Source of the DNA: Bacillota bacterium
Lineage (GTDB): Bacteria > Bacillota > Sulfobacillia > JAIMAT01
Assembly (NCBI GenBank): GCA_029961055.1
Contig: JASBVM010000049.1
Span: forward strand, 1 to 60,048
DNA: 60,048 bases
Reading direction: 5' to 3'
Under the pieces are notes generated by a model. The model saw nothing but the letters and a program-made list of their open reading frames with translations, did no database searches and was not told the origin of the DNA. A program made the position numbers and the translations under genes. Shown here one piece after another: positions 5,871 through 54,927 of the stretch. Position 1 is the first letter of the stretch; each line of letters starts with the position of its first letter.

Positions 5871-6126
5871 GCCACCCACCTCCCGCTGGAAGCTTCGCCC
5901 GGCGGTCGACCCTTCCTGTCGCGGATGCGGGCGACGCGGCGTCGAAGTTGGCTCGGAGGCGGCGCGGGAGGAGCCTTCCCCGCCTCGGCTCCATCCCGCC
6001 GGTGAGCTAAAGTAAGTGTAGTCGCTACAGCACCTAACCAAAGAAGAGACGACCGGGATCGAGGATCCGCATCCTGTGCGCCGGCAAGGGGTCCGGGCCG
6101 GCCCGGCGCGGGGAGGAGGAAGTCCC
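5871..6126. promoter_or_regulatory. Divergent control region between the AtuA operon and ctaG
   Basis: This 256-base gap between divergent genes is GC-rich except for an AT-richer patch at about 6006-6050. In that patch lies a perfect inverted repeat, TGTAG-TCG-CTACA, at 6017-6029. It could be an operator or part of a promoter for either direction. I could not assign convincing -35 and -10 boxes. A purine-rich ribosome binding site (GGGAGGAGGA) at about 6110-6120 serves ctaG. Confidence 0.4.
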
Positions 6127-7077
6127 GTGAACCTTGCAGCTCCGCTCATCCTGGCCGCGGCGGCTCACCCGTCCGGCGCGCGCGGCCACCACGCCTCCGA
6201 GGCGGCCTCCCTCTTCCTGCGCTCGCATCCCGTCCTGGCCATGTTCGCCGGCCGGTGGCAGGCCGAGGCGACGGTGCTCGTCCCCGCGGCGCTGGCGGCG
6301 CTGCTCTACGCCGCCGGCTGGCTCCGCCTCCGCCGCGCCGCGGGAAGGAACTCGGTCCCCGCATGGCGTGCGGCGCTCTTCGCCCTCGGCCTCCTCGCCC
6401 TGCTCTGGGCGCTGGAGGGCCCGCTGGACGACCTGGGCGACGCCTCCTTCGCCTTCCACATGATCCAGCACGAGTCGCTGATCCTCGTGGCGGCGCCGCT
6501 CCTCCTCCTCGGCCTGCCGGCCCCGGTCTTCGCCTGGGCCCTCCCCCGCCGCTGGAACCGGGCGACACTCCCCTGGTTCAGCCGGAGACGGATGCTCCGC
6601 CGGCTGGCGGAGTGGCTCGGCCGCCCGGCGGTCGCCTGGGCGTTCTTCAACGCCGCCTTCGCCCTCTGGCACCTGCCCCCGCTCTACAACGCCGCCCAGG
6701 GGAACGACTGGGTCCATTACAGCGAGCACATCACCTTCCTGGTGGCGGCGCTGGTCTACTGGTCCCGGCTGGTCGGCCTGGGTCCCCACGCGCGCCGGCT
6801 CTCGGCGGCCAGCGCCGCGGGCTACGCGGCCGCCAACATGCCGGTCGGGATGCTCCTGGGCATCTGGTTCCTCTTCAGCCCGAGGCCCGTCTACGCCCAC
6901 TACGAGGCGGCCGAGAACCCCTTCGGATGGAGCGTGCTGATGGACCAGCAGCTGGCAGGCGCCATCCACCTCCTGGTGGGGACGGTCTACCTGGCGCTGG
7001 TCGGCGTCTACCTCGCCCGCTGGATGGTCGACCTGGAGGAGGCGGAGTCCGTCTCCAAGCCGTCCGCCTCCCGCTGA
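6127..7077 (+). CDS. ctaG: Cytochrome c oxidase assembly factor CtaG (Caa3-type)
   Basis: This multi-spanning membrane protein (316 residues from the chosen start, about seven to eight segments) is thought to help copper insertion into caa3-type oxidases in Bacillus. Family hallmarks are the histidine-bearing segments FHMIQHESLILVAAPLLLLG, NAAFALWHLPPLYNAA and HYSEHITFLVAALVYW, with His residues facing the membrane edge as possible copper ligands. The GTG at 6127 is preceded by GGAGGAGG. The gene stands alone, convergent with the lipoyl-protein operon, and no oxidase subunits are in the window. Its presence suggests aerobic respiration with a haem-copper oxidase elsewhere in the genome. Confidence 0.88.
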   Translation: MNLAAPLILAAAAHPSGARGHHASEAASLFLRSHPVLAMFAGRWQAEATVLVPAALAALLYAAGWLRLRRAAGRNSVPAWRAALFALGLLALLWALEGPLDDLGDASFAFHMIQHESLILVAAPLLLLGLPAPVFAWALPRRWNRATLPWFSRRRMLRRLAEWLGRPAVAWAFFNAAFALWHLPPLYNAAQGNDWVHYSEHITFLVAALVYWSRLVGLGPHARRLSAASAAGYAAANMPVGMLLGIWFLFSPRPVYAHYEAAENPFGWSVLMDQQLAGAIHLLVGTVYLALVGVYLARWMVDLEEAESVSKPSASR

Positions 7078-37969: not shown

Positions 37970-39334
37970 ATGGCCCTGTCCGAGGCGGGCGCGGTCCCGG
38001 AGCGGAGCGACGGGGCCGGGAAGCCCGAACTCTGGGAGGCCTGCGTCCACTGCGGCTTCTGCCTGCCGGCCTGCCCCACCTACCAGGAGACGGGGCTGGA
38101 GGAGCTCTCCCCCCGCGGCCGGGTCTACCTCGTCCGCGCCGCCGCCGAGGGACGGCTCTCGCGCCGGGATGCGGCCTGGCTGGAGCCCGTCGACACCTGC
38201 CTCGACTGCCGCGCCTGCGAGGTGGTCTGCCCGTCGGGGGTCCGCGTCGGCGCGCTGATCGAGCAGGCCCGGAGCCAGGTCTGGGCCGGGCGCCGGGCTT
38301 CCTTCTGGAGGCGGCTCGCCTTCCGCCACCTGGTCCCGCATCCTCGCCGCTGGGCGCGGCTCGCCCGCCTCGCCCGCCTCTACCAGCGCAGCGGGCTGCG
38401 GCGGCTCCTGCAGCGGCTCCGCTTCCTGGGCCTCCTGCCGGACCACCTGCGCCAGCTGGAGTCGGTCCTCCCCGAGGTGCGCGGCTGGACGGTCCGCGAG
38501 CGGATCCGCCGCCTCGCCCCGCCCGCCGGCGTCCGCGCCCGCGGGCGCGTGGCGCTCTTCACCGGCTGCATCCAGGACGTGGCCTTCACCGGCGTCAACG
38601 AGGCGGCGGCCCGGGTCCTGGCGCGGAACGGCTACGAGGTGGTGATCCCCAGGGAGCAGGTCTGCTGCGGCGCGCTCCACCGGGACGAGGGCGACCGCGA
38701 GACCGCGGTCCGGCTGGCGCGGCGGAACGTCGAGGTCTTCCTGGGCGCCCTGGAGGCCGGGGTCGACTGGGTGGTCACCACCGCCGGCGGCTGCGGCGCG
38801 GCGCTGCTGGAGTACCCGGAGCTGGTCGGCGAGGAACCCGCCTGGGCTGGCCGGGCGCGCCGCCTCGCGGAACGGGTGATCGACGTCAGCCAGCTCCTCG
38901 ACCGCCAGGGCTGGGAGCCTCCGCGGGCGGCGCCGGGCGGTGCCCGGGGCGCCGGCCCCGTGCCGCTCCGGGTCACGGTTCAGGAGTCCTGCCACCTGCG
39001 CAACGTGATGGGGGTCCGCGAGGCGCCGCGCCGCCTCCTTCGCGCCGTCCCGGGGGTGGAGCTGCTCGAGATGCCCGACGCGGGGCGCTGCTGCGGCAGC
39101 GCCGGCGTCTACAACATCGGCCATCCCGACCTCTCCTTCCGCCTCATGGACAGGAAGGCGGCCGACCTGCCCGAGGGGGCGGAGGTGGTGGCAACCGGCA
39201 ACCCGGGCTGCGCGCTCCAGATGGCGCTGGGCGCCAGGCGGGCCGGGCGCCCCGTTCGCGTCGTCCACCCGGTCGTCCTGCTGGACGAGGCGTATCGCGC
39301 CGAGGAGGTGACGGGCGATGGCCGGAGCGGTTGA
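37970..39334 (+). CDS. glcF: Glycolate oxidase iron-sulfur subunit GlcF, second copy
   Basis: The 454-residue protein starts with two 4Fe-4S motifs (CVHCGFCLPACPTYQ, CLDCRACEVVCPSG), then two CCG domains (LFTGCIQDV with QVCCGALHRD, and QESCHLRNVM with GRCCGSAGVYN). The ATG at 37970 is two bases after the glcE stop. It overlaps glcD by 17 bases, so all three subunits are translationally linked. It passes electrons from the flavin subunits to the respiratory chain. Confidence 0.92.
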   Translation: MALSEAGAVPERSDGAGKPELWEACVHCGFCLPACPTYQETGLEELSPRGRVYLVRAAAEGRLSRRDAAWLEPVDTCLDCRACEVVCPSGVRVGALIEQARSQVWAGRRASFWRRLAFRHLVPHPRRWARLARLARLYQRSGLRRLLQRLRFLGLLPDHLRQLESVLPEVRGWTVRERIRRLAPPAGVRARGRVALFTGCIQDVAFTGVNEAAARVLARNGYEVVIPREQVCCGALHRDEGDRETAVRLARRNVEVFLGALEAGVDWVVTTAGGCGAALLEYPELVGEEPAWAGRARRLAERVIDVSQLLDRQGWEPPRAAPGGARGAGPVPLRVTVQESCHLRNVMGVREAPRRLLRAVPGVELLEMPDAGRCCGSAGVYNIGHPDLSFRLMDRKAADLPEGAEVVATGNPGCALQMALGARRAGRPVRVVHPVVLLDEAYRAEEVTGDGRSG

Positions 39335-40742
39335 CCGCCTGCCGGCGGACGGAGGAGCCGGCCTCCCCGCCGAGGTGGTCCGCGGCCTGGCGGCCATCGT
39401 CGGCGCCGACTCCGTCCTGGCCGGTTCGGCGCGGCTCCTCGCCTACGAGTGCGACGGCAACACCGTCTTCAGCGGCCTGCCCCAGGCCGTCGTCCTCCCC
39501 CATGACCGCGAGGAGGTGGAGCGGGTGATCCGCTTCCTCGACGAGCACGACGTCCCCTGGCTCCCCCGCGGCTCCGGCACCGGCCTCTCGGGCGGCGCCG
39601 TCGCCTGGCAAGGTGGCGTCGTCGTCGACCTCGTCCGTCTCCGCCGCCTGGTCCGCGTCGACCCCGAGAGCCAGCGCGCCTGGGTGGAGCCGGGCGTCAC
39701 CAACCTGGCGCTGACCGAGGCGGTCGCCCCGTTCGGCTTCTTCTACGCGCCCGACCCGTCGAGCCAGGTGGCCTGCAGCATCGGCGGCAACGTGGCGGAG
39801 AACTCGGGAGGAAGTCACTGCCTCAAATACGGCGTCACCACCAACCACGTCCTCGGCCTGGAGGTGGTCATCCCCCGCGGCGGGCGGCTCCGCCTGGGCG
39901 GGGCGGCGCCCGACCTGCCGGGATACGATCTGACCGGCTTCTTCGTGGGCTCGGAAGGCACCCTCGGGCTGGCCACGGAGGCGGTGGTCCGGCTGGTCAG
40001 GCGGCCGCAGGCGGTACGGACCGTCCTCGCCCTCTTCGCCACGCCCGACGAGGCGAGCCGGACCGTCTCCGACGTGATCGCGGCCGGCATCCTCCCCGCG
40101 GCGATGGAGATGATGGACCGCCTGGCCATGGACGGCGTCGAGCTCGGCCCCTACCGGGTCGGCTACCCGCCGGAGGCCGGCGCGGTCCTGCTGGTCGAGG
40201 TGGACGGGATCGAGGCCGGGCTTGAGGAGCAGGCCGAGCGCATCGTGGCCATCGCCCGCCGCAACGGCGTCCAGGACGTGCGCGTGGCGCGGAGCGCCGA
40301 CGAGCGGAACCTCTGGTGGCAGAACCGGAAGACCGCCTTCGGCGCCATGGGCCATCTCTCGCCCAGCTACTACGTCCAGGACGGCGTCATCCCGCGCAGC
40401 CGGCTCCCCCGGGTGCTCCGCCAAGTCGACGAGATCCGCCGCGAGTTCGGGCTCCGCATCGCCAACGTCTTCCACGCCGGCGACGGGAACCTCCACCCGC
40501 TGATCCTCTTCGACGACCGCCGGCCGGGCCAGCGCGAGCGGGCGATCCGCGCCGGCTCCGCCATCCTTCGCGCCTGCGTCGAGGAGGGCGGTTCGATCAC
40601 CGGCGAGCACGGCGTAGGCATCGAGAAGCGCGAGGAGATGCGGCTGATGTACAGCGACGAAGAGCTCCGCTTCCAGGCGGAGCTGCGGCGGGCGTGGGAC
40701 CCGAAGGGGCTGGCCAACCCCGGCAAGGTGCTCCCCGTCTGA
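39318..40742 (+). CDS. glcD: Glycolate oxidase subunit GlcD
   Basis: The catalytic flavoprotein has 474 residues. FAD-binding blocks are PWLPRGSGTGLSGGAV and ACSIGGNVAENSGG, with VGSEGTLGLATEAVV between, and the C-terminal oxidase domain has NVFHAGDGNLHPLILFDD and GGSITGEHGVGIEKREEM. It oxidises glycolate (and probably D-lactate) to glyoxylate (pyruvate). No ribosome binding site stands out within the overlap, so translation likely depends on glcF. Confidence 0.93.
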   Translation: MAGAVDRLPADGGAGLPAEVVRGLAAIVGADSVLAGSARLLAYECDGNTVFSGLPQAVVLPHDREEVERVIRFLDEHDVPWLPRGSGTGLSGGAVAWQGGVVVDLVRLRRLVRVDPESQRAWVEPGVTNLALTEAVAPFGFFYAPDPSSQVACSIGGNVAENSGGSHCLKYGVTTNHVLGLEVVIPRGGRLRLGGAAPDLPGYDLTGFFVGSEGTLGLATEAVVRLVRRPQAVRTVLALFATPDEASRTVSDVIAAGILPAAMEMMDRLAMDGVELGPYRVGYPPEAGAVLLVEVDGIEAGLEEQAERIVAIARRNGVQDVRVARSADERNLWWQNRKTAFGAMGHLSPSYYVQDGVIPRSRLPRVLRQVDEIRREFGLRIANVFHAGDGNLHPLILFDDRRPGQRERAIRAGSAILRACVEEGGSITGEHGVGIEKREEMRLMYSDEELRFQAELRRAWDPKGLANPGKVLPV

Positions 40743-40773: not shown

Positions 40774-42378
40774 TTGTTCGCCCAGATCCTCGACCCCACC
40801 GGCAGCCCGCCCCTGACCGTCCTGCTCGCCCTGGTGCCGCTGGCCTTCCTGCTCGTCCTGCTCGCCGTCTTCCGCCTGAGCGCCTGGCTGGCGACGCTGG
40901 TCGGCAGCGCCGTCACCCTCGCCCTGGCCATGCTGGTCTGGCGGGCGCCGGCGGGCGGCGCGCTGGCCGCCTACCTCTACGGCGCCCTCCAGGGCACGTG
41001 GGTGATCGACTGGATCACCTTCTGGGGCCTGGTCATCTTCAACACGCTCGTCCTGACGGGCAGCTTCGACCGCTTCAAGAGCTGGATCCTGGCCGAGGCG
41101 ACGGCCGACATCCGCGTCCAGACCATCCTCCTGGCCTGGTCCTTCGGCGCCCTGCTGGAGGGGTTGGTCGGCTTCGGCTATCCCTGGTCGGTGGTCGCGC
41201 CCATCCTGATCGGCATCGGCATCAGCGACCTGGAGGCGATCCGCGTCGCCGCGCTGGCCAACAACGCGCCCGTCTCGTACGGGGCGCTGGGCGCGCCCAT
41301 CCTGGCCCTGGGCGTGGTCACGCAGCTCGACCCGTTCGCCCTCTCGGCCTCGGTGGGGAAGCTGGTGGCCGTCCTGGCGCTGCTCCCGCCCTGGATCCTC
41401 ATCTACCTTGTCAGCGGCCGCCAGGGGCTGAAGGAGGCCTGGCCGCTGGCGCTGGTCGCCTCGCTCTCCTACATCGCCGGCCAGTACCCGGTCTCCCAGT
41501 GGGTCGGCCCCTACCTGCCCGACCTGACCGGGTCGCTGGTCTCCTTCTGGGTGCTCTACGCCTTCCTGCGCGTCTGGCGGCCGCGGGTGGTGCGGGGCTT
41601 CGGCGGGTCGCCGCTCGCCGCGGCGGCGGACGATCCGGCGGGGAACGGGGGCGGTCTCAGGGCGGCGCTCGAGGCCTGGCTTCCCTATATCGTGCTGATC
41701 GTGGTGGTGGTCGCCTGGACGGGGCCCTGGTCGCACCTGCCCTCGCTCACCCTCTTCAAGCTCTCCACCTCGGCGGTCTCCTCCGTGACGCACCGGGAGG
41801 TGACGTCCGCCTTCGCCTTCACGCCGCTGGGCGGCGGCACCGCCATCCTGGCCAGCTGGCTGGTCATCACCGCCATCCTGCGCCCCTCGCTCCGGACGCT
41901 GGGCGAGGTCTTCGCCCGCACCTTCCGGCAGATGTGGGGCGCGCTCCTGGTCGCGTTCTTCATCTTCGGGCTCGCCTACGTCTTCAACTACTCGGGGATG
42001 GCCGCCTCGCTGGCCTACAGCTTCGCCAAGGTGGGACCGGCCTTCGTGGTCCTGGCGCCGGTCTTGGGCTGGGTGGGCGTGGCGCTGTCGGGGAGCAACA
42101 CCTCGACCAACGCCATGTTCGGGCAGATCCAGGTGGTGGCCGGGAAGCTCCTCGGCTTCCCCGCCCTCCTCCTCCCCTCGCTCAACTCGGTGGGGTCGGA
42201 GATCGGCAAGCCGATCGCCCCGCAGACGGCCAGCGTCGGCGTCTCCACCAGCCGGCTCGTGCGCAACGAGGGCGAGGTGATCCGGCACAACATGGGCTGG
42301 ACCCTGGTTCTCCTCGCCTACCTGATCCTGATCGGCCTCTTCTTCCGCTACGTCGTACCCGGGGCGATGGAACTCTGA
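40774..42378 (+). CDS. L-lactate/glycolate permease (LctP family)
   Basis: The 534-residue carrier has about 12-14 membrane segments and the LctP family blocks GTWVIDWITFWGLVIFNTLV, FGALLEGLVGFGYPWSVVAP, ANNAPVSYGALGAPILALG and VALSGSNTSTNAMFGQIQ. E. coli LldP and GlcA are homologues, and GlcA sits in the glc locus, so transport of glycolate as well as lactate is likely. The TTG start has GGGAGGAGG nine bases upstream. It ends the glcEFD operon. Confidence 0.92.
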   Translation: MFAQILDPTGSPPLTVLLALVPLAFLLVLLAVFRLSAWLATLVGSAVTLALAMLVWRAPAGGALAAYLYGALQGTWVIDWITFWGLVIFNTLVLTGSFDRFKSWILAEATADIRVQTILLAWSFGALLEGLVGFGYPWSVVAPILIGIGISDLEAIRVAALANNAPVSYGALGAPILALGVVTQLDPFALSASVGKLVAVLALLPPWILIYLVSGRQGLKEAWPLALVASLSYIAGQYPVSQWVGPYLPDLTGSLVSFWVLYAFLRVWRPRVVRGFGGSPLAAAADDPAGNGGGLRAALEAWLPYIVLIVVVVAWTGPWSHLPSLTLFKLSTSAVSSVTHREVTSAFAFTPLGGGTAILASWLVITAILRPSLRTLGEVFARTFRQMWGALLVAFFIFGLAYVFNYSGMAASLAYSFAKVGPAFVVLAPVLGWVGVALSGSNTSTNAMFGQIQVVAGKLLGFPALLLPSLNSVGSEIGKPIAPQTASVGVSTSRLVRNEGEVIRHNMGWTLVLLAYLILIGLFFRYVVPGAMEL

Positions 42379-47433: not shown

Positions 47434-48537
47434 CTACGGGGCGGCCTCGCCGGCGCCCTCGCCGGCCGCCCCCTCGTCGACCGCGCCGTCAGCGGGCGCC
47501 GCCAGCTTCCGGCCGGGCCGCGGCAGCCCCTCGGGGAGCGCCGCGACCGGCAGGAAGCCCGGCAGGATCCACTTCTCCCACATCTCGTCGACCTTGGACT
47601 GGAAGTACTCGATGTCGTCCTCCGTGAAGTGCGCGAAGCGCCCCTGCCGCATCAGGTACTCGCGCACCGGCTTCCGCTTGCGACGGCCCTCCACGATCTG
47701 CCTGGTGATGCCGTTGTAGCGCAGCTCGCCCTCGACGACCTCCCAGAGCGGGACGACGCCGCACTCCACCGCCAGCTGCCCGAGCTCCCGCGAGTAGCGG
47801 GGGTCGAAATCCCAGCCCTTCGGGCAGGCGTCGTGCACGTGCAGGTAGGTGGGCCCGCCCACCCGGAGCGCGGTCCGGATCTTGTTCATCACGTCGACGC
47901 CGAAGGCGGCGCTGGCCGAGCCGATGTAGCGCGCCTCCGGGTGGCCGGCCACCAGCATGGCCGGCGTGTTCTTCTTCCAGCGGTCCTGGGTGATGCGCCT
48001 GACCGTCCCCGAGGGGGTGAAGGCGGTGACCGCGCCCCAGGGGGTGCTTCCCGACGCCTGGATGTCGGTGTTGGCGTAGGACTCGTTGTCGTAGAGGATG
48101 ATCAGCGCGTTGTACTGGGTGTGCTGCAGGGCGGCCGAGATGGCCGACAGCCCCATGTCCGCACCGCCGCCGTCGCCGGCGATGCCGATCACGTTGATCG
48201 GCTCCTCAGGAAGCTTCCCTTTCCGCTGCTGCACCGCGTAGCCCGCCGCCGCCCCGATGACGGCGGCCCCGGTGGCGCCCAGCTGGGTGTGCATCCAGGG
48301 GATCACCCAGGGCGTGGCGTAGTAGCTGGTGTTGGCCACGTACATGCAGCCCGTGGCGCCGATGGTGACCGTCCTCGGACCGGCCGCCTTGGCGAGGTAC
48401 TTCATCAGCAGGGCCGAGTGGCAGCCCTGGCACGTGCGATGGCCCGAGGTGTAGAACTCCTCGACCGGAACGTCTCGGATCGTCCGGATGGGGGCCAGAT
48501 CCGGCCGCCCCGCGGGCCGCGCCTCCGTGATCGCCAT
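47434..48537 (-). CDS. Oxalate oxidoreductase-type 2-oxoacid:ferredoxin oxidoreductase, beta subunit
   Basis: This is the thiamine pyrophosphate subunit. Cluster-binding cysteines include Cys in RTCQGCHSALLMK and GATGCMYVANTS. The TPP motif runs from GDGGGADMGLSAISAALQ to YDNESYANTDIQASG. At 367 residues it is longer than typical beta subunits (about 310) because of a C-terminal region ending in a disordered acidic tail. The ATG at 48537 has AGGAGGTG nine bases upstream, inside which an alternative GTG lies. It is the last of three subunit genes; the alpha subunit supports oxalate as substrate. Confidence 0.85.
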   Translation of the reverse strand: MAITEARPAGRPDLAPIRTIRDVPVEEFYTSGHRTCQGCHSALLMKYLAKAAGPRTVTIGATGCMYVANTSYYATPWVIPWMHTQLGATGAAVIGAAAGYAVQQRKGKLPEEPINVIGIAGDGGGADMGLSAISAALQHTQYNALIILYDNESYANTDIQASGSTPWGAVTAFTPSGTVRRITQDRWKKNTPAMLVAGHPEARYIGSASAAFGVDVMNKIRTALRVGGPTYLHVHDACPKGWDFDPRYSRELGQLAVECGVVPLWEVVEGELRYNGITRQIVEGRRKRKPVREYLMRQGRFAHFTEDDIEYFQSKVDEMWEKWILPGFLPVAALPEGLPRPGRKLAAPADGAVDEGAAGEGAGEAAP

Positions 48538-48597
48538 CTCCGCTTCCACCTCCTGGCGAGATCGCCTTCGCCCGGCGGTTCGCGTCGCCGCGAGCCG

Positions 48598-49830
48598 CTA
48601 TTCCACAGGGCCACGGACGCCGATCCAGTGGGCGCTCTCGGCCAGGAGGTCGCCGGCGGCCGACCTCTCCAGCTGCTCCTGGATCCGGAAGACGTCCTCC
48701 ACCGAGACCTCACGGCCTCCGAGGCCCGCGATAAAGCCGATCACCGGCGGCCGGTCCGCAAGGTCGTAGAGCGCGCTGCGCACCTCGTTGTAGACCGCGC
48801 CGCCATGCCGCGTGGAACCGTACGAGTAGTCGCGATCGACCACTCCCACCCCCTTCCGGCCGTGCAGGAAGTGCCGCAGCTCCTCGTCCGGGAAGGGCCG
48901 GAACCACTTGATGCGCAGGAAGCCCACCCGCTTCCCCCGCTCCCGCATCTGGTCCACCGCCACCTTGATCGGCATGGCCACCGTCCCCATCCCGATCAGC
49001 ACGTAGTCGGCGTCCTCGATCCGGTAGGTCTCGACGAAGGGGTTCGGGTCGCCCCGGCCGGTCAGCCGCCTCAGCTCCTCGTACGCCTCGGCGATGACGC
49101 CGCGCGCCCGGCGCATGGCGGCGTCCGACTGCTTGCGCGTCTCCATCACCCAGTCCTCGTTGTACTGGGGGGCGATGGAGATGGGGTTGTCGGGGTGGAA
49201 GCGCCGCTTCTTCAGGTCGTACGGAGGAAGGAAGGCCTCGACCAGATCCTTCTCCGGCACCATCACCAGGTGCTGCGAGTGCGTCAGGAAGGCGCCGTCC
49301 ATGGAGAGCGCGCAGGGGAGCGAGACGCGCGCATCCTCCGCCACCCGGTAGGCGAGGAAGGTGGTGTCCAGCGCCTCCTGCCCCTCCGCCACCCAGTAGA
49401 GGAGCCAGCCCGCGTCCCGCACCGCCAGCGCGTCGTTGTGCTCCACGCCGAAGGCGCCCGGGTCGTCCAGCGCCCGGTTGCCGACCAGCGCCACCACCGG
49501 CAGCCGGAGCGCGGCCGTCACCACGATGGCCTCCATGGCGTACATCCAGCCGACGCCGGAGGAGCCGACGAAGACCCGCGCCCCGGTGGCCGAAGCGTGC
49601 TTGACGATCTCGAACTGCGAGTGCTCGCTCTCGGCGATGATGAAGTCGGCGTCCATCTGGCCGTTGGCGATCATCTTGGCGACGGCGCTCATCACGCTGT
49701 CGTAGGGACGGATGGGATAGCCGGCCATCACGTCCACGTCGGCCAGGCGGAGCGCCTGCGCCACCGCCTCGGTGCCGGTGATCAGTTCCTCGTGCTGCGC
49801 GAATCGCTTGGAAGCCTCTGTCACAGCCAT
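48598..49830 (-). CDS. Oxalate oxidoreductase-type alpha subunit
   Basis: The 410-residue subunit has the pyrimidine-domain motif YPIRP at 38-42, where pyruvate enzymes have YPITP, and then Arg119, Asp122 and Phe127 in GNRALDDPGAFG. I recall Moorella oxalate oxidoreductase using Tyr28, Arg31, Arg109, Asp112 and Phe117 for oxalate binding and decarboxylation; all match with a constant shift of ten. The enzyme would split oxalate to two CO2 and reduce ferredoxin. Its ATG shares one base with the stop of the gamma-delta gene (TGATG). The family also includes pyruvate and 2-oxoisovalerate enzymes, which the Arg in YPIRP disfavours. Confidence 0.83.
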   Translation of the reverse strand: MAVTEASKRFAQHEELITGTEAVAQALRLADVDVMAGYPIRPYDSVMSAVAKMIANGQMDADFIIAESEHSQFEIVKHASATGARVFVGSSGVGWMYAMEAIVVTAALRLPVVALVGNRALDDPGAFGVEHNDALAVRDAGWLLYWVAEGQEALDTTFLAYRVAEDARVSLPCALSMDGAFLTHSQHLVMVPEKDLVEAFLPPYDLKKRRFHPDNPISIAPQYNEDWVMETRKQSDAAMRRARGVIAEAYEELRRLTGRGDPNPFVETYRIEDADYVLIGMGTVAMPIKVAVDQMRERGKRVGFLRIKWFRPFPDEELRHFLHGRKGVGVVDRDYSYGSTRHGGAVYNEVRSALYDLADRPPVIGFIAGLGGREVSVEDVFRIQEQLERSAAGDLLAESAHWIGVRGPVE

Positions 49831-50909
49831 CAGGCGGTCACCTTCCTCCGGCTGGAGCGGGCGGTCACCCGCTGGGTGTCGAGGAGCGTCTGGAAGAACC
49901 TCGCGTAGGCGGCTTTGTCGGCTTTCCAGTCCGCGTACAGGTCGTGGTTGTCGTCGAAGGCCAGCTCGTCGACCATGACGATGCAGTCGTCGACCGGGCA
50001 GACCTCGGCGCAGATGCCGCAGCCGCAGCAGGCCTCGTACTCGACCCGGTAGGTGCCCTCGGGCGTCAGCTCGAAGACCGAGTCGGGGCACTCCATGAAG
50101 CACTGCTTGCACTGGGTGCAGGCATCAAAGTTGATCACCGGCCGCTCGGAGCGGGTGGTGAACTTCTTGAAGGCCTCCTGCCGCCCGCCGCGGGGCGCCG
50201 CCGGGACGATGATCGCCTCCGCCATCTCGTTCCACTCGGGCAGCCGGACCGGCTCGTAGGTGTAGGGCGCGCCGACGCCGGCGGGCACGGTGCTGACCTG
50301 CACCTCGCGGTAGCCTTGGCGCAGCCCCTCGAGGTGCTGCTCGGCCTTGGGGCCCTTGGCGACCTCCTTCTCCAGGTCCTCGAGGCGGACGACCTCCGGG
50401 ATCAGGTGGGCGATGGCCCCCAGGACGCGGAACTCGGTGCCGTCGTCGTGGTAGACCCAGAGGCCGGAGAAGGACTTCTGTCCCGGCAGGATCCCCAGGC
50501 GCCAGTCGAAGGGGAGCTGCGGGATGAACTCCAGCAGCTTGCTCCGCTCATGGTCGGAGACGACCAGCAGCGCGCCGCCCTCCGCCAGGCCCAGGTGGAT
50601 CGGGCGGATGCCGTACCAGGCCCAGGACTCGTGCCCCTTGGCCAGCGTGTCGTCCAGCGCCGCGATCAGGCGGACGTTGTCCGGCTCGTACTTGGCCATC
50701 TGGACGTGGAGCTCGTCTTCGGACTCGGCGATGACCGCGAACTGTTTGGCGGGGATGCCGTTCCGCTCGGGCGAGTCCGAGTAGCGCGAGATGGTGCCGC
50801 CGATCTTGCCCGAGTGCCGCGATGCCTTGACCAGCGTCTTGACGATGTTCCCCGCCAGGATCTTCTGGAAGATGCCCCGGTAGGTGATATCGACCGAACC
50901 GCTCGCCAA
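49830..50909 (-). CDS. Fused gamma-delta subunit of the oxalate oxidoreductase-type enzyme
   Basis: Residues about 1-200 form a divergent gamma domain (YRGIFQKILAGNIVKTLVKA, GGTISRYSDSPERNGIPAKQ) and residues about 255-320 a two-cluster ferredoxin delta domain (CTQCKQCFMECPDS and CCGCGICAEVCPVD). A gamma-delta fusion is also found in Moorella oxalate oxidoreductase. The gene is first in its operon and is preceded by an inverted repeat GGTAT-N5-ATACC. GTG/ATG choice: the frame begins at the GTG-like start at 50909 after AAGGGGGAAGG. Electrons from oxalate would leave through its clusters to ferredoxin. Confidence 0.8.
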   Translation of the reverse strand: MASGSVDITYRGIFQKILAGNIVKTLVKASRHSGKIGGTISRYSDSPERNGIPAKQFAVIAESEDELHVQMAKYEPDNVRLIAALDDTLAKGHESWAWYGIRPIHLGLAEGGALLVVSDHERSKLLEFIPQLPFDWRLGILPGQKSFSGLWVYHDDGTEFRVLGAIAHLIPEVVRLEDLEKEVAKGPKAEQHLEGLRQGYREVQVSTVPAGVGAPYTYEPVRLPEWNEMAEAIIVPAAPRGGRQEAFKKFTTRSERPVINFDACTQCKQCFMECPDSVFELTPEGTYRVEYEACCGCGICAEVCPVDDCIVMVDELAFDDNHDLYADWKADKAAYARFFQTLLDTQRVTARSSRRKVTA

Positions 50910-51077: not shown

Positions 51078-52415
51078 CTACTCCGACACCGCGTGGCCGG
51101 CGGCCGGCGCCACCGACTCCGCCATCTGCCGCGCCCGCTCGGCGGTCCGCCGCGCCAGCGGCTTCAGCCAGACCAGGGCCAGGATGGCGTCCAGCGCGCT
51201 GGCCAAGACCATGGCCCAGAAGACGCCCACCCATGAGCCGCTCTGCACCGCCGCCAGGGCGGCGACGGGGCCGGCCAGGATGGAGGCGACGCCCTTGGCC
51301 GTGTACATGATCCCGTAGTTGGCGGTCGCCCAGGTCCGACCGTAGAGGTCGCCCACCGCCGCCGGGAAGAGCGAGAAGATCTCGCCCCAGGAGAAGAACG
51401 CCAGCCCCGAGAGGACGATGAACCAGACCGGGTGGTGGATCAGCTGCAGGAGAGCCAGGATGGTCAGCGCCTGGATGGAGAAGGCGATGAACATGGTGTT
51501 CTCCCGGCCGATGTGGTCCGAGATCCAGCCCCAGAAGGGCCGGGTGATCCCGTTGAGGATCCGGTCCAGCTGGACCGCCAGGACCAGCGCCGTCATGCCG
51601 AAGGCGACGACCACCTTGTCGACGTGGTAGAACTTGGCGATCGGCTCCAGTTGGGCGGTGACGACGAGCCCGCTGAAGGCCATCAGGGTCATCATGAGGT
51701 AGAGCACCCAGAAGGAGCCCTGGCGGATCACCTGCCCGGGCGTCAGGTCCAGCTTGGAGGTGGTCACCCGCAGGGCGTGGGTGGCCTCCCTCGCCGCCCA
51801 TCCGGGCGGCATCCATCCCTTCGGCGGCTGGACGATGAAGTAACCCGCGGCCATGGTGACCAGCCCCTGGACGATGCCCCAGACGATGAACGCCTGTTGG
51901 TAGCCGCTCGATTCGATCATGGCCGCGATGGGGGCGACGGTGAAGGCGGTGCCGATGCCGTAGCCCCCGGCCGTGGCGCCGGCGGCCAGGCCGCGGTGGT
52001 CGGGGAACCATTTGAGCGCGTTGCCCATGGCCGCCCCGTAGACCGCGCCAGCGCCGATGCCACCCAACGAGTACCAGAAGTAGAGCGCCCAGAGGCTGTG
52101 CGCCAGCCCGGAGCCCACCCAGCTGACGCCCGCCAGGAGACCCCCGGCCATCACCACGATCCGCATGCCAAGCCGGTCGGCCAGGTAGCCTTCGACGGGC
52201 TCCAGCCACGTCTCGAAGAGGACGAAAAGCGTAAACGCCACCTGGACGGCCGCCAGTGAGACGTGCAAGGCGGATTGGAGCGGCGTGGTGAAGAGCGTCC
52301 AGGCGTATTGAAGGTTGGCGATCGCCATCATGGCGACGACGCCGGCCACCAGCTGCCACCAGCGGTTGACGACGCGAGTGGCCGCGGAAGGTGAAGCCGT
52401 CTCGGCGGAGCTCAT
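51078..52415 (-). CDS. OxlT-like oxalate/formate MFS transporter
   Basis: The 445-residue, 12-segment carrier follows OxlT closely at the start: NRWWQLVAGVVAMMAIANLQ, YAWTLFTTPLQ and HVSLAAVQVAFTLF align with Oxalobacter OxlT, and GIGAGAVYGAAMGNALKWFP with its segment 4 region. It would take up oxalate, perhaps exchanging it for formate. The ATG at 52415 has GGGGAGG eight bases upstream; the open frame continues 45 codons further without conserved content. The gene lies 168 bases upstream of the oxalate oxidoreductase operon and has its own strong promoter and operator. Confidence 0.87.
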   Translation of the reverse strand: MSSAETASPSAATRVVNRWWQLVAGVVAMMAIANLQYAWTLFTTPLQSALHVSLAAVQVAFTLFVLFETWLEPVEGYLADRLGMRIVVMAGGLLAGVSWVGSGLAHSLWALYFWYSLGGIGAGAVYGAAMGNALKWFPDHRGLAAGATAGGYGIGTAFTVAPIAAMIESSGYQQAFIVWGIVQGLVTMAAGYFIVQPPKGWMPPGWAAREATHALRVTTSKLDLTPGQVIRQGSFWVLYLMMTLMAFSGLVVTAQLEPIAKFYHVDKVVVAFGMTALVLAVQLDRILNGITRPFWGWISDHIGRENTMFIAFSIQALTILALLQLIHHPVWFIVLSGLAFFSWGEIFSLFPAAVGDLYGRTWATANYGIMYTAKGVASILAGPVAALAAVQSGSWVGVFWAMVLASALDAILALVWLKPLARRTAERARQMAESVAPAAGHAVSE

Positions 52416-52538
52416 GGCCCATCCTCCCCCCCATGGACCGCATCGCGTTCCGCGCGGCGGACCGCCGATGCGGCACCCGACGGATGGTCGAACCTCCCCT
52501 CGCGCGGCGGAGCCCGGGAATGCCGCGCCCCTGCTGAT

Positions 52539-52553
52539 GGTATGCCGCATACC
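52539..52553. promoter_or_regulatory. Operator-like inverted repeat before the oxlT-like gene
   Basis: GGTAT-GCCGC-ATACC lies just downstream of the predicted transcription start of the transporter gene. ATGGTATGCCGCATACCGT matches the site before the oxidoreductase operon at 18 of 19 positions. A protein bound here would block transcription. Confidence 0.72.
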
Positions 52554-53076: not shown

Positions 53077-53193
53077 TCGACCCCAGGGGGCCGGGCGGAG
53101 GCGGGCGAAACGGAGGCGGAGCCGGCCGCGGTGCCGGCTCCGCGCATGTCCGGCCAGGCGGTCGCAAACACCATGGAGGAGGAAGCGAAGCGG

Positions 53194-53913
53194 ATGAACC
53201 TTCCGCGACTCGAGTCGGACCGGTTCCCGGTGGTGGTGGACGAGGTCTCCAAGGCGATCCGCGCGGCCATCCTGGACGGCCGGGCGCCGAAGGGCACCCA
53301 CCTGGTGGAGCGCGAGCTGGCCGAGCAGCTGGGGGTGAGCCGCACGCCGGTGCGCGAGGCCCTGCGGCGCCTGGAGCGGGAAGGGCTCCTCGTCTACGAG
53401 CCCCGGCGGGGCGTGGTGGTCAGCGGCTTCGACGAGCAGTCGGTCCGCGACCTCTACCTCATGCGCGAGCTCCTGGAGGGGCTGGCCGCCCGGCTCGCGG
53501 CGGAGCGGCACACCCCCGACGAGCAGGCGGAACTGGAGCGGCTCCTGGAAGAGGCGGAGACGGCCGTGGAGCAGGGGGATGTGGACGCCGCCGCCACGCA
53601 GAACGTGGCGATCACCCTGCAGCTCTACCGGATGGCGCACAGCGCGCGCCTGGAACAGGCCCTGGCCGCCCTGCGCGACTATATCGAGAGCTTCACCCGG
53701 ACCGGTTACCGGGACGATTGCCGTCTTCGCCAGGCGCACCGGGAGCACCGTGCCATCGTGGCCGCCATCCGTGACCGCGACGCCGACCTGGCGGAGGAGC
53801 TGACCCGGCTTCACGTCCGCCGCTCGCTGGAGAGCTGGCAGCACCGGCGGGCCGTGCAAGCCGCGGCGGCGGCCGGCGAGGGAGCCCCCACCCCCTCCGA
53901 CAAAGACACGTAA
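53194..53913 (+). CDS. GntR family regulator with FCD (FadR-type) effector domain
   Basis: The ATG at 53194 follows GGAGGAGG and gives 239 residues. The winged helix (LVERELAEQLGVSRTPVREA followed by LRRLEREGLL) is typical of GntR proteins. The all-helical FCD domain (RELLEGLAARLAAER ... AHREHRAIVAAIRDRD) binds small carboxylates, often with a metal held by Asp/His residues. In-frame ATG 53173 and GTG 53131 are weaker starts. The nearby GGTAT-N5-ATACC palindromes before the oxalate transporter and oxidoreductase genes are its likely targets, with oxalate or a related acid as effector. Confidence 0.87.
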   Translation: MNLPRLESDRFPVVVDEVSKAIRAAILDGRAPKGTHLVERELAEQLGVSRTPVREALRRLEREGLLVYEPRRGVVVSGFDEQSVRDLYLMRELLEGLAARLAAERHTPDEQAELERLLEEAETAVEQGDVDAAATQNVAITLQLYRMAHSARLEQALAALRDYIESFTRTGYRDDCRLRQAHREHRAIVAAIRDRDADLAEELTRLHVRRSLESWQHRRAVQAAAAAGEGAPTPSDKDT

Positions 53914-54066
53914 CCGGGAGCCCCGTCCCCGCCTCCTTCCGCCGGTTTGTCCCCCTCTCCCTCCGATTCCCTTTCCCTCCGAGAAGGACTCGGACGACCA
54001 CCGTCGAACAAGCCGTCTAACTCTACGGAACTCGGTTTCTGCATAGGAGACGAGGTCCGCAGGGGG

Positions 54067-54927
54067 GTGTCTTCCTCGGCCACTCCGCCGATCGGATCGC
54101 TGGCCCGGGCGCTCCAGCTGCTCGAGCAGTTCACGGCGCGCCAGGACGAGTGGGGCGTGCGCGAGCTCGCGCTCGCCACCGGCATGAGCAAGGCGACCGT
54201 CTCCAAGGTGATGGCCACCTTCCGGGCGCACGGCTACGTGGTCCAGGACCCGCTGACCAGGCGCTACCGGCTGGGCCCCGCGTTCATCTCCGGAGGCCGG
54301 GTGGCGGCGCGCCGGCTGAACGTGGTGGAGGCGGCGCGCCCCGTTCTGGAACGGCTGGCGGGGCAGACCGGCGAGACGGCCGTCCTCATGCTCCGCGCCG
54401 GCTGGCGGTCGGTCTGCGTGGCGACGGCGGAGGCGCCCCGCTCCTCCATCCGCGTCGCCGCGACGGTGGGGCGCTACGCCTCGCTCCACGCCGGCGCCTC
54501 CAACAAGCCGATCCTGGCCTTCCTCGGCGACGCGGAGATCGAGGAGTACCTCGCCTCGCCCTTCTTCGTGCCACGGGGTCCCCGCTCCATCACCGAAGCG
54601 GGGGCGATGCGGGCGCACCTGGCCGAGATCCGCCGCACCGGCGTGGCGTTCAGCTCCTCGGAGGTGGAGCCGGGGGTGAGCGCCTGCGGTGCGCCCGTCT
54701 TCGGCCCCGGCGGTGCCGTGGTCGGTGCGGTCAGCGTCACCGGGCCGGCGGACCGGCTCGCCGGCGAGGCGATGGCGGCGGCGGGCGTCTACGTGCGCCA
54801 GGCGGCGGAGGAGCTGAGCCGCGCCTTGGGCTGGCGGAGCGCCGACGGGTGGCGGAGGACCGGCGCGGTGTCGAGAGGGCGAACGCGAGAGGAAGGGGTG
54901 GAAGCGGATGAGACCGCGATGGGGTAG
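54067..54927 (+). CDS. IclR family regulator, second copy
   Basis: The protein has a winged helix-turn-helix (WGVRELALATGMSKATVSKV) and an IclR effector domain (RSVCVATAEAPRSSIRVAAT, HAGASNKPILAFLGD, SSSEVEPGVSACGAPVFG). The start is uncertain; GTG at 54067 gives a normal N-terminus of about 286 residues, and the frame is open to 53947. It overlaps the substrate-binding protein gene by 20 bases, so it is part of the transport operon and probably controls it. The effector is unknown. Confidence 0.82.
   Translation: MSSSATPPIGSLARALQLLEQFTARQDEWGVRELALATGMSKATVSKVMATFRAHGYVVQDPLTRRYRLGPAFISGGRVAARRLNVVEAARPVLERLAGQTGETAVLMLRAGWRSVCVATAEAPRSSIRVAATVGRYASLHAGASNKPILAFLGDAEIEEYLASPFFVPRGPRSITEAGAMRAHLAEIRRTGVAFSSSEVEPGVSACGAPVFGPGGAVVGAVSVTGPADRLAGEAMAAAGVYVRQAAEELSRALGWRSADGWRRTGAVSRGRTREEGVEADETAMG

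Follow-up and report, generated by a model that had tools for sequence, protein, structure and literature searches.

The 60,048-nucleotide stretch of DNA analyzed here (hereafter, the window; contig JASBVM010000049.1 of a Bacillota bacterium assembly, GCA_029961055.1) contains three adjacent genes whose products resemble the oxalate oxidoreductase (OOR) of Moorella thermoacetica (PDB 5c4i, 5exd, 5exe). On the minus strand, these genes encode a fused gamma-delta subunit (49830–50909; 359 aa, with a gamma domain, a two-[4Fe-4S] ferredoxin domain, and a C-terminal extension), then an alpha subunit predicted to bind thiamine pyrophosphate (TPP) and substrate (48598–49830; 410 aa, Pfam POR_N and PFOR_II), and then a TPP-binding beta subunit (47434–48549; 371 aa). 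The gamma-delta stop codon overlaps the alpha start in the sequence TGATG at 49832–49828. The best solved relative of alpha was Moorella OOR alpha (5c4i_A, E 1.3e-92; the alpha subunit of pyruvate:ferredoxin oxidoreductase (PFOR), 9bt4_B, gave 9e-63), beta likewise matched Moorella OOR ahead of PFOR (5.2e-84 versus 2e-53), and gamma-delta matched 5c4i_B over nearly its full length (phmmer, 3.1e-17). Coordinates, strand, and this last match bear out the fused gamma-delta subunit and the order gamma-delta, alpha, beta given in an original prediction, which had read the locus as OOR from its sequence. Pfam recognized the two-cluster ferredoxin domain in gamma-delta and the TPP-binding domain in beta, and all 12 cysteines that ligate the three [4Fe-4S] clusters are kept, eight of them in gamma-delta (proximal cluster in beta: Cys40, 43, 68, and 242). 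The AlphaFold2 model of gamma-delta (mean pLDDT 72.9) had its best structural matches in Moorella OOR (5exd_B, 5exe_B, and 5c4i_B; Z 20–21) with a root-mean-square deviation of 9.3–9.5 over 247–252 residues, a value so large that the model probably arranges the gamma and delta domains differently from the Moorella chain. The alpha model (mean pLDDT 67.5, active-site loops below 50) was left unused.

Phylogenetic analysis separated the Moorella-type OOR (clade A; NCBIfam NF045790–NF045792) from the clade of the window enzyme (clade B). A 72-row alpha tree gave 100/100 support to clade A (33 rows), to clade B (12 rows), and to A and B together versus pyruvate-type enzymes; a 62-row tree of representatives hand-chosen out of 200 aligned rows, with deeper archaeal members, gave 100/99, 99/96, and 100/100, respectively. 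The alpha phylogeny suggested as a check on the original prediction thus sets the enzyme apart from pyruvate-type enzymes in both trees, and does not place it inside the OOR clade. On these sequence comparisons, the window enzyme shares the OOR lineage while lying outside the described OOR family in a separate sister clade, and clade B is a previously unnamed branch, sister to the known anaerobic OOR, with a rebuilt active-site loop. We recognized no account of clade B in the accessible text of open-licence papers on OOR and oxalate degradation. A full-length match to the gamma-delta fusion was found in 37/38 clade B, 12/30 clade A, and 0/20 pyruvate-type control loci, and the 12 cluster cysteines are kept across aligned clade B rows except for delta Cys267 (36/38). 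The four-subunit PFOR of Methanosarcina (PDB 9bt4) shares the overall fold and the TPP and cluster motifs, but has YPITP in place of YPIRP, separate gamma and delta subunits, other neighbors, and a position in another clade. Two YPITP- or FPITP-type oxidoreductases were noted in passing (L-numbers denote loci and G000 the window genome): an alpha-beta fused enzyme elsewhere in the window genome (L002, G000:C21:2350-3462; FPITP, 34% identical to the window alpha) and a YPITP-type enzyme with an odd switch loop, RALSAPHSRF, adjoining TctA/TctC carriers (L188, G030:C68:7000-20000).

Alpha residues Tyr38, Arg41, Arg119, Asp122, and Phe127 correspond, at a constant shift of ten, to Moorella Tyr28, Arg31, Arg109, Asp112, and Phe117. 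They lie in YPIRP (residues 38–42, codons at 49705–49719, minus strand) and in the switch or plug loop RALDDPGAFG (residues 119–128, codons at 49447–49476, minus strand). In Moorella numbering, Arg31 plus Asp112 was present in 39/39 clade A and 59/59 clade B sequences and in none of 28 other 2-oxoacid:ferredoxin oxidoreductases, all with Thr at position 31 (YPITP); these 126 alpha sequences are those distinct over residues 31–380 out of the 200 aligned rows, and because their A and B classes were set by the residues themselves, the independent check is the trees, built on a subset of the rows. Likewise, YPIRP or FPIRP plus the Asp occurred in 33/33 clade A, 13/13 clade B, and 0/27 other members of a 73-row set. 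Arg109 is present in all 59 clade B sequences, with Phe (45) or Tyr (14) at position 117. The surrounding loop distinguishes the clades: positions 112, 113, 116, and 117 read D, P, D, F in 39/39 clade A sequences and D, D, A/N, F/Y in 59/59 clade B sequences, Pro113 being Asp123 in the window alpha. In gamma, the clade A rows that were read have an SGxEG loop (which carries Glu154gamma); at this place clade B shows, in a gappy alignment, another loop that has conserved acidic residues of its own. Judging from the rebuilt switch loop and the differing gamma loop, gating of the reaction in clade B must differ in detail from that of Moorella OOR; Asp123 may stand in for Asp116. Asn143beta is kept (YDNESYANT), as it is in pyruvate-type enzymes, and is not diagnostic.

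Irregular forms were also seen within clade B. The beta TPP motif GDG reads SDG in four actinobacterial loci that bear a NuoF-like gene (L067, L068, L069, and L075) and GDL in Sulfolobus-like archaeal loci L138–L143 and in L074. One of these, L143 (G1225:C1:247000-262000), has fragmented beta and gamma-delta frames and an extra Pro in the alpha switch loop, and is a decaying or misassembled copy.

Upstream of gamma-delta on the same strand lies a gene for an OxlT-type oxalate/formate antiporter of the major facilitator superfamily (51078–52550, minus strand; 490 aa). The OxlT-like neighbor named in the original prediction was confirmed by a score of 478.8 against the TIGR04259 oxalate/formate antiporter equivalog (cut-off 335), and the carrier matched Oxalobacter OxlT (8hpj_A, 2.3e-68) more closely than the lactate transporter 6g9x (4.7e-43). 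Its Arg337 and Lys419 correspond to OxlT Arg272 and Lys355 (PDB 8hpj/8hpk), which, according to the accessible text of the OxlT study, bind oxalate by its two carboxyls (PMC10070484); 6g9x has Cys at the Lys355 position. By alignment, 7/9 residues of the quantum mechanics/molecular mechanics binding-site set given in that text are identical in the window carrier, which differs from OxlT in Phe for Tyr328, Tyr for Trp352, and a longer N-terminus. Among 20 further carriers of the oxalate/formate antiporter (OFA) type beside clade A and B loci, both basic positions were readable in 18 and were Arg plus Lys in 16; in the remaining two, at L138 and L141, each position is Lys. The metagenome-assembled genome (MAG) Bu54 contains two operon copies (L065 and L066) with identical alpha proteins and different OFA carriers, one above the equivalog cut-off (459; the L066 carrier) and one below it (287).

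Gene neighborhoods were compared in a uniform tblastn survey of markers within 9.5 kb of alpha at 40 clade B, 30 clade A, and 20 pyruvate-type control loci. An OFA, TTT, or LctP carrier was found at 20/40, 19/30, and 1/20 of these loci, respectively, and an FCD-GntR regulator at 17/40, 22/30, and 0/20, counts in which the markers were taken from clade B loci, self-matches are included, and related genomes are not independent. The clade B loci held OFA (13), Nramp (9), TctA and TctC (7), and LctP (4) carrier markers as well as NuoF-like (4), AsnC (4), and CaiB (1) markers; clade A loci held FCD (22), OFA (8), LctP (6), TctC (5), and TctA (4), with GlcD or GlcF at none; and TctA plus TctC at one locus were the only markers beside the controls. 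The window shares its OFA carrier and FCD-GntR regulator with Moorella-type loci, including the clade A locus L161 (alpha with 99% identity to that of Moorella OOR), and in Methylomirabilota one TTT carrier family adjoins both clade A and clade B enzymes. The window regulator (53131–53913, plus strand) is divergent from the operon and is a homolog of the FCD-GntR regulators that adjoin further loci of both clades; next to it is an IclR-type regulator (53947–54927, plus strand) whose nearest model, BhcR, is a below-cut-off match that hints at a possible link to C2 acids.

Other neighbors were specific to subsets of clade B. Nramp-type metal transporters, possibly linked to metal-oxalate uptake, lie near 9/40 operons (L130–L133, L135, L137, L144, L145, and L147), and among actinobacterial loci an Nramp gene occupies the place of the OFA carrier in L134. 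Directly upstream of the L068 operon are genes for another PFOR-like protein, a single chain of 1248 aa, and for a protein with a ferredoxin tail (L068:2223-8490). Near the thaumarchaeal operon L074 is a CoA-transferase family III gene (CaiB/Frc-like; L074:6647-7837) that falls under all curated NCBIfam cut-offs.

Our analysis indicates that the three genes probably encode an OOR-like enzyme acting on oxalate, which is the best guess at the substrate because of Arg31, the neighbors shared with clade A, and the carrier. Oxalate would be brought in by the neighboring OxlT-type carrier and bound by a TPP-dependent complex of alpha, beta, and gamma-delta subunits containing three [4Fe-4S] clusters, in which Arg41 and Arg119 would hold the oxalate-TPP adduct. 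Two CO2 would then be released, and two low-potential electrons would pass via the clusters to ferredoxin, which would probably be re-oxidized by a complex I without an NADH module, so that a haem-copper oxidase would finally pass the electrons to oxygen. We infer oxalate as substrate, independence of coenzyme A (CoA), ferredoxin as acceptor, and the complex I route.

Several observations weigh against this assignment. The window alpha is 41% identical to Moorella OOR alpha, and all three subunits miss the curated NCBIfam OOR cut-offs (alpha 371.8/500, beta 338.6/590, and delta 103.5/230 bits). Accessible text on the bait-and-switch mechanism of OOR names Arg31 and Asp116 (PMC5020499), and that of a second paper lists Arg31alpha, Asp116alpha, Glu154gamma, and Asn143beta as catalytic (PMC12654022); the Asp116 equivalent is Ala126 in the window (Ala in 49 and Asn in 10 of the 59 distinct clade B sequences), and two of these four curated residues are not kept: Asp116alpha and, as far as the gappy gamma alignment shows, the Glu154gamma motif. 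The two basic residues of OxlT are conserved across the whole OFA family, according to the available text of PMC10070484, and so are no proof of oxalate. The neighbor counts carry the sampling noted above, and glycolate/glyoxylate markers also occur among the 40 clade B loci (GlcD 5, GlcF 3, and BhcA-like aminotransferase 2). Cut-offs, clade placement, and loss of Asp116 together rule out full membership in the Moorella-type family. Of the original prediction, which had called the enzyme an OOR, what survives is the grouping with OOR, the dicarboxylate-type Arg31, and the clade A-like neighborhood, in a sister clade rather than in OOR itself; similarly, its match of active-site residues is beyond chance for the five it listed (Arg31 plus Asp112 in 98/98 of A and B, 0/28 in others), but the list was selective, and "all matching" passed over Ala126 and the differing Glu154gamma loop.

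The main rival is that clade B oxidizes glyoxylate, produced by the glycolate oxidase GlcDEF, to formate or formyl-CoA plus CO2 with reduction of ferredoxin. Loss of Asp116 and the apparent loss of the Glu154 loop would be consistent with such a change of substrate, as would the GlcD-E-F genes that come after the operon at L138 in an archaeon, GlcD-like genes near L066, L130, and L141, BhcA-like glyoxylate aminotransferases in L131 and L132, and LctP/GlcA-type permeases at 4/40 clade B loci. The window itself contains a GlcD-like FAD-linked oxidase of the glycolate oxidase type (39318–40742, plus strand) ~9 kb away from the operon, followed by a permease of the lactate/glycolate family (LctP; 40774–42378, plus strand). 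We nevertheless consider glyoxylate unlikely: it has a single carboxylate only, the window and L066 carriers exceed the oxalate/formate antiporter cut-off, and clade A loci share the carriers, yet have GlcD or GlcF at 0/30.

Less likely again is another doubly charged 2-oxoacid (e.g., mesoxalate or oxaloacetate) or a promiscuous oxidoreductase of C2–C4 acids. Arg in place of Thr31 would fit any second carboxylate, the switch loop is altered, and the carriers are varied (OFA, TTT, and LctP, with Nramp at 9/40 loci); against this, the Moorella-type locus with 99% identity shows the same OFA and FCD association, and the window carrier is close to OxlT. An ordinary pyruvate- or branched-chain-oxoacid:ferredoxin oxidoreductase, the probable automatic annotation, is highly improbable. 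The PorA model does score 355.6 bits, near the 371.8 of the OOR model, but clade B forms a separate clade with 100/100 support, every member has Arg for the Thr31 of YPITP, and the shared carriers and regulators lie beside 1/20 and 0/20 pyruvate-type controls, respectively; we rejected this candidate on the alpha trees and residue 31.

Oxygen respiration appears general among the organisms that carry clade B, in contrast to the anaerobic setting of Moorella OOR, and archaea are among these carriers. The original prediction had remarked on the conflict between an oxygen-sensitive enzyme and a haem-copper oxidase assembly gene in the same window; that gene, ctaG, is present at 6076–7077, the window genome has three COX1 matches, and the paradox proved real and general, with haem-copper oxidases in 12/12 clade B genomes examined, the window genome included. 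COX1 was over the cut-off in 11/11 other clade B genomes versus 8/32 clade A genomes, a contrast that is not phylogeny-corrected and in which the 32 include no clade A Methylomirabilota. The complex I cluster of the window genome matched subunits A, B, C, D, H, I, K, L, M, and N, but E, F, and G all went without a match; reduced ferredoxin may therefore feed a complex I without an NADH module. A NuoF-like query of the window genome found no match in a search made without a control genome, a weak negative on which we set aside a NuoF-like partner in this organism. As for the Frc/Oxc route, the Oxc model reached just 203 bits (cut-off 739), so no Oxc was recognized in the window genome; Frc was not searched genome-wide.

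Another electron exit may operate in part of clade B. A NuoF-like gene directly follows beta in 4/4 loci from Actinomycetota MAGs (L067, L068, L069, and L075), which suggests an NAD-linked variant; such a gene was found at 0/8 of actinobacterial loci L130–L137. The NAD-coupled oxidoreductase core proposed for the NuoF-bearing loci recalls phenylglyoxylate dehydrogenase (NF045764/NF045766), from which the window enzyme differs in its alpha score (266 bits versus a cut-off of 700) and in having no NAD module in the window.

Clade B spans bacteria and archaea. Of the 12 loci found in a scan of named contigs, Bacillota MAG Bu54 supplied two, Actinomycetota MAGs four, Methylomirabilota/NC10 MAGs five, and a thaumarchaeal MAG one. 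Across wider genome sets it was present in 50/95 Methylomirabilota (residues read in 21; counted by at least 66% identity or, once, a partial 97% match), 27/398 genomes of an archaeal phylum (residues read in 25), and 9/396 Actinomycetota (residues read in all nine), so that the "rare" of the original prediction does not describe clade B. Five further Methylomirabilota genomes have clade A only, and one has both clades. Of two other genomes from the genus of the window organism, one carries the operon twice and the other lacks it; in a sample of its phylum, 28/398 genomes were over the clade A cut-off. Plasmid carriage was rejected, the best plasmid matches having 33–34% identity and so not being clade B. 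One archaeal carrier, G938, is putatively Sulfolobus sp. A20; Sulfolobus is described as an aerobic genus in the accessible text of the A20 paper, and the word oxalate is missing from its main text (PMC5127849).

Taken as a whole, these data make it about an even chance that clade B is an unrecognized interdomain branch of OOR that allows oxygen-respiring members of both domains, a cultured Sulfolobus among them, to respire oxalate with no need of the CoA-dependent Frc/Oxc route. On this reading, its active site would be gated differently, and electrons would leave it in either of two ways: through ferredoxin to a complex I without an NADH module, or through a NuoF-like subunit to NADH.

Surveys of oxalate breakdown target oxalate decarboxylase and the Frc/Oxc pathway, and regard OOR as an enzyme that is rare and confined to anaerobic life. 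In one such survey, the accessible text sets OOR aside for lack of information (PMC8062136). Since clade B scores under the curated OOR cut-offs, searches that use them would miss it, though roughly one in two of the Methylomirabilota genomes searched carry it and so, putatively, does a cultured aerobic archaeon. The natural A-to-B substitutions at positions 113 and 116 also allow a direct test of the published bait-and-switch model. If the substrate is oxalate, clade B would represent an overlooked low-potential route in the oxalate turnover of soils and hot springs, and a [4Fe-4S]/TPP enzyme of an oxygen-sensitive type would be at work in oxygen-respiring cells.

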